Below are positions 53,881-55,537 of a stretch of DNA of 64,000 nt, in pieces. Source of the DNA: Endomicrobium proavitum (GTDB lineage Bacteria > Elusimicrobiota > Endomicrobiia > Endomicrobiales > Endomicrobiaceae); NCBI RefSeq assembly GCF_001027545.1, contig NZ_CP009498.1, positions 1,178,001 through 1,242,000 on the forward strand. Direction: 5' to 3'. Under the pieces are notes generated by a model. The model searched no databases. It saw nothing but the letters and a program-made list of their open reading frames with translations, and was not told the DNA's origin. The first letter of the stretch is position 1; each line of letters opens with the position of its first letter. Both the position numbers and the translations under genes were made by a program.

Positions 53881-55170
53881 TTATTTTTGCGAGTTTTGCA
53901 AAGCCTGGTCAATATCCGCAATAATATCGTCAACGTTTTCTATACCGACGGACAATCTTATGTAGTCCGGCGTTACGCCCGTTGCAAGCAACTCTTTTTC
54001 CTCAAGCTGCGAGTGAGTTGTTGTCGCAGGGTGAATTACCAGCGTTTTTGCGTCGCCGACGTTTGCCAAATGTATGGCAAGCTGCGAAGCTTCTATAAAT
54101 TTCTTGCCGGCTTCTTTGCCGCCTTTTATGCCGAAGCCTACTATAAAGCCGCCTCTGCCGTTAAGATATTTTTTTGTTTTTGCGTATTCGGGGTTGTTTG
54201 GAAGTCCGGGATAATTTACCCAGGAAACAAGCGGATGTTTTTCCAAAAATTGCGCAACTTTCAAAGCGTTTTCTACATGTCTTTCCGCTCTCACATGGAG
54301 AGATTCCAACCCTTGCAAAATAATGAAAGCGTTGAAAGGCGAAAGCGTAGGGCCTGTATCTCTTAAAAGCCCCGCTCTTGCTTTAAGAATGAAAGCCAAG
54401 TTTCCGAAAGCTTCGGTAAATTTTAATCCGTGATAGGCGTTGTCGGGCTCTGAAAGGGTCGGAAATTTTCCGGTTGTCCAATCAAATTTTCCGCCGTCAA
54501 CAATTAATCCGCCAAGCGTTGTTCCGTGTCCGCCGAGAAGTTTTGTTGCGGAATATACAACAATGTCCGCGCCGAATTTCAAAGGCTGGAAAAGATACGG
54601 CGAAACGGTGTTATCTATTACCAAAGGTATTCCCGCTTCGTGCGCAATTTTTGCCAAAGCTTCAACGTCGGCTATGTCAAGTTTCGGGTTTCCTATGCTT
54701 TCTGCGTAAAGAGCTTTCGTTTTAGAATTAATCGCTTTTTTAATTGCGCTTAAATCTTCGGAAGGAACAAAATTTACTTTTATATTGTACTTTTTAAACG
54801 TGTTGGCAAAAAGCGAATAAGTTCCGCCGTAGAGGTTGTCTGCGGAAACTATTTCGTCGCCGGCATTTGTAATTGTAAGAAGCGCGTTTGCTATTGCCGC
54901 CGACCCGCTTGAGAAAGCCAAAGCCGCCGCGCCGCCGTCAACCAACGCTATTCTTTTTTCAAGAACGTCGTTTGTAGGGTTTGTAAGTCTTGAATAAATG
55001 TTGCCGAACTCTTTTAAGCCGAAAAGTTTTGCCGCGTGGTCTGCGCTGTTAAACTTAAACGACGTTGTTTGATAAATAGGAACCGCCACCGAACCGGTTG
55101 TTGGATCCGGCTCTTGTCCGCCGTGAACTAAAAGACTCTCTGTTTTAAGTTTGCTATCAATTTTAGACAT
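53881..55170 (-). CDS. metY: O-acetylhomoserine sulfhydrylase MetY
   Basis: The 429-residue PLP enzyme has [60 protein letters not shown], the PLP Asp region [17 protein letters not shown] and the PLP Lys in [12 protein letters not shown]. It is full length and typical of MetY, which converts O-acetylhomoserine plus sulfide to homocysteine; cystathionine gamma-synthase is less likely at this length. AGGAG lies just before the ATG. A ~330-nt leader with a small Cys/Met ORF and a hairpin suggests feedback by attenuation. Confidence 0.95.
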
Positions 55171-55200: not shown

Positions 55201-55370
55201 GTTTTTTATTTTTTGTTTTTGTTGTTGCAGTTAATTCTCAATTTTAAATTGTCAATTGCCGCCACATTCGCATTCGCTGAAAAATAAAACAAGCGTTATT
55301 TATCATAAAAATACCCGTCCTTACTTTGTTTGAATTTATTTAGTTGTTGTGCTGCAAGATTAATTTTTAG

Positions 55371-55409
55371 AAAAAGAAAAATGTAATTAGTTTTGAGAAA
55401 CAATTACAT
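55371..55409 (-). terminator. Candidate attenuator hairpin in the metY leader
   Basis: On the - strand ATGTAATT (55409 to 55402) pairs with AATTACAT (55388 to 55381), with an inner GTTT/AAAC stem, followed by TTTTCTTTTTCT. The 5' arm contains the last codon and the stop of the upstream small ORF. The stem is AT-rich, so strength is uncertain. Confidence 0.55.
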
Positions 55410-55499
55410 TCGCGAAGAGAAAATAGACATGCACATGCATCCGTAAGACGCATGTTCGTAAACTTTGTTGAAGTTGGCAGTTGTAAGTATGTGTTTCAT
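55404..55499 (-). CDS. Candidate Cys/Met leader peptide of metY (31 aa)
   Basis: An ATG at 55499 lies 9 nt after the TAATAT -10 box, so the ORF is read from a leaderless or nearly leaderless mRNA; no Shine-Dalgarno fits. It encodes 31 residues with TGC ATG TGC ATG in a row (SYGCMCMS) at codons 21-24 and ends at TAA inside the 5' arm of a hairpin with a U-rich tail. These features match transcription-attenuation leader peptides, with cysteine and methionine as the plausible sensed amino acids given the downstream gene. Mycobacteria are known to have leaderless polycysteine ORFs before cysteine genes. No homologue of this peptide is known to me. Confidence 0.55.
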   Translation of the reverse strand: MKHILTTANFNKVYEHASYGCMCMSIFSSRM

Positions 55500-55508
55500 T
55501 AGAGCGAA

Positions 55509-55537
55509 ATATTAGCACATACTAAAAATTTTGTCAA
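55509..55537 (-). promoter_or_regulatory. Sigma70 promoter of the metY leader
   Basis: On the - strand a consensus TTGACA (55537 to 55532), a 17-nt spacer and TAATAT (55514 to 55509) predict a start at 55500-55503, next to the small ORF's ATG. Confidence 0.8.

Follow-up and report, generated by a model that had tools for sequence, protein, structure and literature searches.

The metY leader of Endomicrobium proavitum

The gene metY of Endomicrobium proavitum, a member of a genus of termite-gut bacteria, encodes the enzyme that incorporates sulfide into homocysteine and is preceded on the minus strand by a leader of about 330 nt that separates it from a malate/lactate-dehydrogenase-like gene. 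The window analysed here is the whole 64,000-nt stretch around this leader (NZ_CP009498.1, positions 1,178,001 to 1,242,000; locus L001 in the comparisons), and positions are counted from its first letter. The leader and its borders contain the following features:

55695-55662: strong terminator of the malate/lactate-dehydrogenase-like gene (terminator scan)
55509..55537, minus strand: sigma-70-type promoter TTGACA-N17-TAATAT with an extended -10; TTGACA-N17 is kept in relatives
55404..55499, minus strand: leader ORF 1, near-leaderless, encoding MKHILTTANFNKVYEHASYGCMCMSIFSSRM and a stop; homologous ORFs in L008, L025, L026 and L028
55433..55455, minus strand: hairpin 1 (ACAUGCGUCU/GGAUGCAUGU), 10 bp, with a Cys-Met codon pair in the 3' arm
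55407..55412, minus strand: CGA ATG (Arg-Met) of ORF 1, with the stop codon directly after
55371..55411, minus strand: hairpin 2, a putative weak terminator with an A-U stem and a U-rich tail, overlapping the stop codon and the Arg-Met pair
55367..55453, minus strand: overlapping +1-frame ORF MRLTDACACLFSLRECNCFSKLITFFFF with four Cys, open in 5/5 group members; rival sensor
55244..55306, minus strand: leader ORF 2, encoding MINNACFIFQRMRMWRQLTI and a stop, with two CGA ATG pairs and a possible Shine-Dalgarno (SD) sequence AAGGACGGG, between ORF 1 and metY
53881..55170, minus strand: metY, O-acetylhomoserine sulfhydrylase (TIGR01326, E 1.7e-194), with the SD AGGAG at 55182-55178

The promoter is composed of TTGACA (55537-55532), a 17-nt spacer and TAATAT (55514-55509) preceded by TG, matching the consensus at 10 of 12 positions, and the ATG of ORF 1 follows the -10 element by 9 nt, at 55499. 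The first-pass annotation of this site had described such a promoter and start, a 31-codon ORF with the codons TGC ATG TGC ATG, a stop codon within the 5' arm of a U-tailed hairpin, and a location ahead of a gene for homocysteine synthesis. All of these were recovered: the ORF is present with its near-leaderless start (55499-55404), its stop lies in hairpin 2, and the downstream gene encodes O-acetylhomoserine sulfhydrylase. The metY leader did not match a SAM or other known riboswitch or a T-box at the Rfam gathering score, and the nine leader loci searched against Rfam gave weak off-target matches only; an explanation by a riboswitch, a T-box or any other family in Rfam was rejected.

Hairpin 1 has a folding energy of -12.9 kcal/mol (z -3.3) and hairpin 2 one of -6.1 kcal/mol (z -5.6), with no equally stable structure among 200 shuffles in either case. 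ORF 1 ends, with its final sense codon and its stop, inside the 5' arm of hairpin 2, and together with its flanks this hairpin reaches -8.2 kcal/mol and is followed by TTCTTTTT. Since its stem is nearly all A-U and the consensus terminator scan of the window does not list it, hairpin 2 would be a weak terminator at best. A U-tailed hairpin at the Arg-Met codons was found in none of the other Elusimicrobiota leaders tested (L025 has a distant, weak-tailed one), so that intrinsic termination would be at most specific to E. proavitum; a conserved intrinsic terminator was rejected, the U-tailed hairpin being confined to the window. The alternative pairing proposed earlier, between ACATGC and two copies of GCATGT, does exist in the window; relatives lack the second GCATGT, and a conserved antiterminator was not found in the aligned leaders, where hairpin 1 is kept. 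What survives of the complete attenuator first read at this site is therefore the leader ORF with its Cys and Met codons and a conserved hairpin 1, but not a conserved terminator, and the original model, a single Cys/Met attenuator ending in a terminator, is right only in part. That first reading did not include ORF 2, the +1-frame ORF or the CGA ATG pair, which recurs before other sulfur genes.

Recurrence of the leader and the CGA ATG signature

Upstream DNA of metY and its paralogues was extracted from relatives for comparison. A leader ORF was present at nine Endomicrobiaceae metY loci, including the window, so that a lack of conservation in relatives, named beforehand as an outcome that would speak against the element, was not what the genomes show: a short or near-leaderless ORF recurs before metY, and hairpin 1 is retained. 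By prediction from sequence, the ATG lies 6-10 nt past the -10 element in six genomes (L001, L004, L025, L026, L028 and, from another family, L009) and 23-32 nt past it in three (L002, L003, L005); L008 has a leader ORF without a recognisable promoter, and metY of L006, L007, L016 and L027 has no such leader. ORF 1 of the window can be aligned to those of L008, L025, L026 and L028 if a single in-frame gap of 6 nt is allowed. In these four nearest relatives the outer stem of hairpin 1 (CAUGY/GCAUG) is near-invariant and the inner stem differs, which provides structural support with little base-pair covariation. The TGC ATG TGC ATG run, among the leaders compared, occurs in the window only, and purifying selection on ORF 1 as a peptide was not found overall (pN/pS ~0.76 in every frame).

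Comparison of these leaders shows that neither the TGC ATG TGC ATG run nor the terminator is what they conserve; the constant element is a CGA ATG pair, which the leader ORFs nearly always carry in frame and mostly close to their end. In 68 metY-family upstream regions, CGAATG was the fifth most enriched hexamer, behind four promoter and SD words (TTGACA, CTTGAC, AGGAGA and AAGGAG), and was found at 28 loci where 8.4 were expected (for the reverse complement, 5 where 6.2 were expected). This count was made without choosing ORFs and is for that reason a fair test, since the filter applied to paralogue leaders itself picked Arg-Met or Cys. The Arg-Met frame of an ATG-opened frame accommodated 31 of the 39 CGAATG occurrences, compared with 19/78 for the other two frames. 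Across 34 leader ORFs, CGA was the Arg codon in 38 of 39 Arg-Met pairs; in the genes of the window it makes up 20 of 521 Arg codons (3.8%). Because the loci share ancestry, none of these counts are independent, but the leaders fall into about ten groups with peptides alike in nothing else. Cys and Met account for 5.5% and 6.1% of leader residues (n = 848), with Cys at about 1% of codons in window genes, and the leaders of L004 and L009 contain no Cys at all.

Several genome scans (promoter plus CGAATG, R-M-C-x-F-C, and CGAATG before SD sequences) were run, and the matches checked outside metY and metY-operon leaders were tRNA genes, coding sequence or chance; a genome-wide scan for near-leaderless promoters was too unspecific to use. 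In E. proavitum, the sense intergenic in-frame cases found were limited to metY and the operon of a metY paralogue, and the other in-frame ATG..CGAATG among those checked were antisense to genes or in otherwise unlikely frames. These distributions bear on the simplest alternative, that the leaders are leftover short ORFs with chance occurrences of CGAATG. Such a reading would fit the fast divergence of the short ORF 1 peptides and the in-frame ATG..CGAATG that also arise antisense to genes elsewhere in the genome, but the enrichment, strand and frame statistics, the CGA codon bias and the restriction of sense intergenic cases to sulfur loci in E. proavitum make it highly improbable.

A second alternative, in which CGAAUGYR acts as RNA by binding a trans-acting RNA or protein and the reading frame is incidental, draws on the nucleotide string being steadier than the peptide. 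The codon after Arg-Met starts with pyrimidine-purine in 38 of 39 cases, for which a pause model gives no explanation, and L025 and L026 also carry CGAATG outside the Arg-Met frame. However, the predominance of the Arg-Met frame (31/39) argues against this reading, as do the coding-strand CGAATG of sulfur-operon spacers, all in frame and found without choosing a frame, and the lack of a match to any Rfam family; we consider a purely RNA-level element distinctly unlikely.

The tRNA complement of E. proavitum fits a pause in decoding. Its tRNA-Arg anticodons are ACG, TCT, CCG and CCT; since there is no TCG tRNA gene, tRNA-Arg(ACG) in its inosine form is the only tRNA expected to decode CGA. A CGA codon placed in the his leader of Salmonella is slowly read (PMC4046918). 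We take the CGA ATG pair to be a probable site of ribosome pausing through which the supply of sulfur amino acids is sensed.

Leader ORF 2, candidate peptides and the proposed mechanism

Counterparts of ORF 2, each with CGA ATG, were found in L002, L003, L005, L025, L026 and L028. Between L003 and L005 they differ at 15 sites, of which 11 are third positions (pN/pS 0.09), and this third-position excess is good evidence for the translation of ORF 2 in these two genomes. The spacer between ORF 1 and ORF 2 is G-poor relative to C (14 C and 4 G of 80 in the window), a composition that would also allow Rho-dependent control. Right after ORF 2, upstream of metY, L025, L026 and L028 share a conserved promoter-like site, TTGCAG-N17-TATCAT, which would yield a leader-free metY transcript.

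For the group of the window, the working leader peptide might alternatively be the overlapping Cys-rich ORF of the +1 frame (MRLTDACACLFSLRECNC...), making the element a plain Cys attenuator. All five members keep this frame open and share two constant Cys in it (DACACLFSLREC, DACAFLFPQHEC, NACVFHLPQYEC, NACVFLFPQYEC and DACVVQFPQHEC), and its pN/pS of 0.52 is below the 0.79 and 1.00 of the other two frames. Its ATG is, however, without an SD sequence, nearly all other groups have no ATG-opened counterpart, and the position bias (33/20/24) is weak in sequences that are few and related, leaving this ORF a very unlikely sensor.

The reading that we prefer, with somewhat better than even confidence, is that the metY leader is a ribosome-mediated attenuator of two short leader ORFs in which ribosomes would pause at CGA-AUG under sulfur-amino-acid shortage; in broader terms, the leader system is real and conserved, and its most likely role is ribosome-mediated sulfur-amino-acid control. 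A ribosome translating the leader would be slowed at CGA by the inosine-adenine wobble expected of tRNA-Arg(ACG) and, when Met or Cys is short, would be held with the Met (or a nearby Cys) codon in its A site. The paused ribosome would keep the RNA beyond it from the OFF fold, with the outcome that metY would be made when sulfur amino acids are scarce. In E. proavitum, a ribosome paused with its P site on CGA and its A site on AUG would occupy the 5' arm of hairpin 2. Termination would thereby be prevented, so that shortage would favor read-through (metY ON). The direction of control had seemed puzzling, because a ribosome at the ORF stop would cover the terminator arm; with sensing placed at the final codon pair, this difficulty is mostly removed, but the solution hinges on the weak and species-specific hairpin 2.

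The readout is predicted to differ elsewhere. In L002, L003 and L005, the SD of ORF 2 is paired with the final third of ORF 1 at an opening cost of 8-11 kcal/mol, which a ribosome footprint at Arg-Met cuts by 4.4-6.7 kcal/mol; a paused ribosome would here open the hairpin that buries the SD. In L160 and L161, the SD opening cost is lowered by a footprint some codons before Arg-Met, and not by one at Arg-Met. No SD unmasking was found in the group of the window; in the window itself, a footprint at Arg-Met either hardly alters how accessible the SD is or alters it in the direction opposite to that required. SD sequestration relieved by an Arg-Met footprint was thus rejected as a general mechanism, being true in one group and not in the window. 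Given these differences and the species-specific hairpin 2, the pause signature would be shared and its readout lineage-variable.

Arrest peptides such as TnaC and SpeFL stall ribosomes in response to their metabolites. A nascent chain ending in Arg-Met could likewise stall the ribosome on a metabolite (Met, SAM, Cys or sulfide) and not on a hungry codon. Arg-Met is the sole residue pair common to otherwise unrelated leaders and is mostly near the C-terminus; ORF 2 of L003 and L005, in contrast to ORF 1, keeps its peptide (DFFKTIPFSFVNGRMRVC) at the low pN/pS given above, and the sequence TYLxHSLAxKAVSTERM is kept between two leaders. Any Arg codon would serve an arrest peptide, yet all but one of the 39 pairs have CGA, and the residues preceding Arg-Met vary across groups. 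Stalling by the peptide is accordingly unlikely in our judgement, and codon-dependent pausing at CGA-AUG remains our preferred reading.

Other sulfur loci and comparison with known leaders

The leaders of metY paralogues carry Arg-Met in diverse peptides (WRMCIFCCC, WRMCLFCCSC, WRMCLFCRS, MRMCNFN, ECDLFYERMCR and SCRRMRG), and a leader from another family (L010) contains KRMCCC. Arg-Met ORFs are also present in operon spacers downstream of the third metY paralogue, before genes for NMT1/THI5-type ABC binding proteins or neighbouring genes (MKFFRMRMCRQN in E. proavitum; MHKIEFNKTGIFRMRRSF, MHKIKFNKIKVFRM, MRNFKDYSVLRM and FNIENIRMR types in relatives). In one genome (G017), metY (L004) and an ABC binding-protein gene (L310) have the near-identical leader peptides TYLxHSLAxKAVSTERM, which suggests leader duplication. 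In three genomes (L160, L161 and L176), a conserved small ORF of about 55-60 codons (MENIKTTY.EVLRNYA...) lies between the leader ORF and the metY paralogue. A dyad-like CATATATG-N-ATATG, possibly an Rrf2/CymR-type operator, occurs just past the -10 of the sulfur promoters of L160, L162, L163 and L165, and L009 and L021 have a AATGTCTA-N-TAGACATT dyad instead.

The loci L162 and L292 belong to an operon-like cluster (G000, contig 1:837,601-848,000) with a metY paralogue, an NMT1-type ABC binding protein and a permease, together with two nitrogenase component 1-like proteins, a FeMo-Co-binding-like protein, a further Cys/Met-metabolism PLP enzyme and a CysK-like PLP enzyme. By analogy with isethionate reductase (PMC11423573) and methylthio-alkane reductase, this looks like a sulfur-scavenging nitrogenase-like cluster, and it could be relevant to what has been called the 'group IV nitrogenase' in E. 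proavitum.

Outside the Elusimicrobiota, two of about 77 metY loci have a short ORF with clustered Cys/Met and CGA ATG CGC. In an Acidobacteria bin (L102:44-169), the metY leader encodes MAMCMCMACGPVRAALEKRMR and a stop, with a terminator of about -18 kcal/mol 38 nt past Arg-Met; in Slackia (L096), the leader MCMDTRMRA, also followed by a stop, lies about 205-175 nt before metY, with a terminator of about -22 kcal/mol 31 nt past Arg-Met. Two in 77 might be luck, and we regard these loci as a lead and not as a result; searches for further leaders in Acidobacteria, Slackia and other genomes returned coding or chance matches only. We raise tentatively, as a rather doubtful generalization, that CGA-AUG leaders could form an undescribed and possibly cross-phylum class of sulfur-amino-acid sensors, in which an inosine-decoded rare Arg codon would pause the ribosome before Met (then often Cys) with varied readouts.

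Judged by the open-access literature searched, no translation-coupled control by sulfur amino acids has been described in Elusimicrobiota before, so that the E. proavitum system would be the first, and in a cultured species. Sulfur regulons of uncultured relatives could be sought simply by scanning short leader ORFs for CGA ATG in frame, and a synonymous codon fixed in dozens of leaders would be a natural test of inosine-adenine wobble as a regulatory pause.

Leaders of the erm/TnaC arrest type pause the ribosome near the end of the leader ORF, where it controls a downstream SD or hairpin. The SD control by a paused ribosome predicted for L002, L003 and L005 resembles these systems, whereas the leaders described here have a constant codon pair in place of a constant peptide, and no known ligand. 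As in classical ribosome-mediated attenuators (trp, his and ilv; Mycobacterium tuberculosis ilvB1, PMC13236596), the leader includes codons for the pathway product and, in the window, a U-tailed hairpin. Unlike in trp, his and ilv, the putative regulatory codons of the window lie partly within the 3' arm of hairpin 1 and partly at the ORF stop, no conserved antiterminator was found, and hairpin 2 is weak and not conserved. The candidate cys leader peptides predicted in Actinobacteria (BMC Microbiol 2005, PMC1262725) similarly have Cys codons, near the stop, with the other attenuator parts missing, but are described for cys and cbs genes only and with no Arg-Met signature. A further related kind is that of the leaderless short ORFs with polycysteine in mycobacteria (Canestrari et al. 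2020, doi 10.1111/mmi.14498), which, as far as they are presented in citing papers (PMC9031893, PMC13236596), contain Cys codons and precede sulfur amino-acid genes; they are leaderless or nearly so, as is predicted for the six genomes here with an ATG 6-10 nt past the -10 element. Their contiguous Cys run is replaced in the window by C-M-C-M, and CCC was found only in some metY-paralogue leaders and L010. Relative to that partial description, the Elusimicrobiota leaders, known here from sequence, differ in that CGA-AUG is constant and Cys runs are optional, and in that two leader ORFs stand in tandem and copies occur inside operons.
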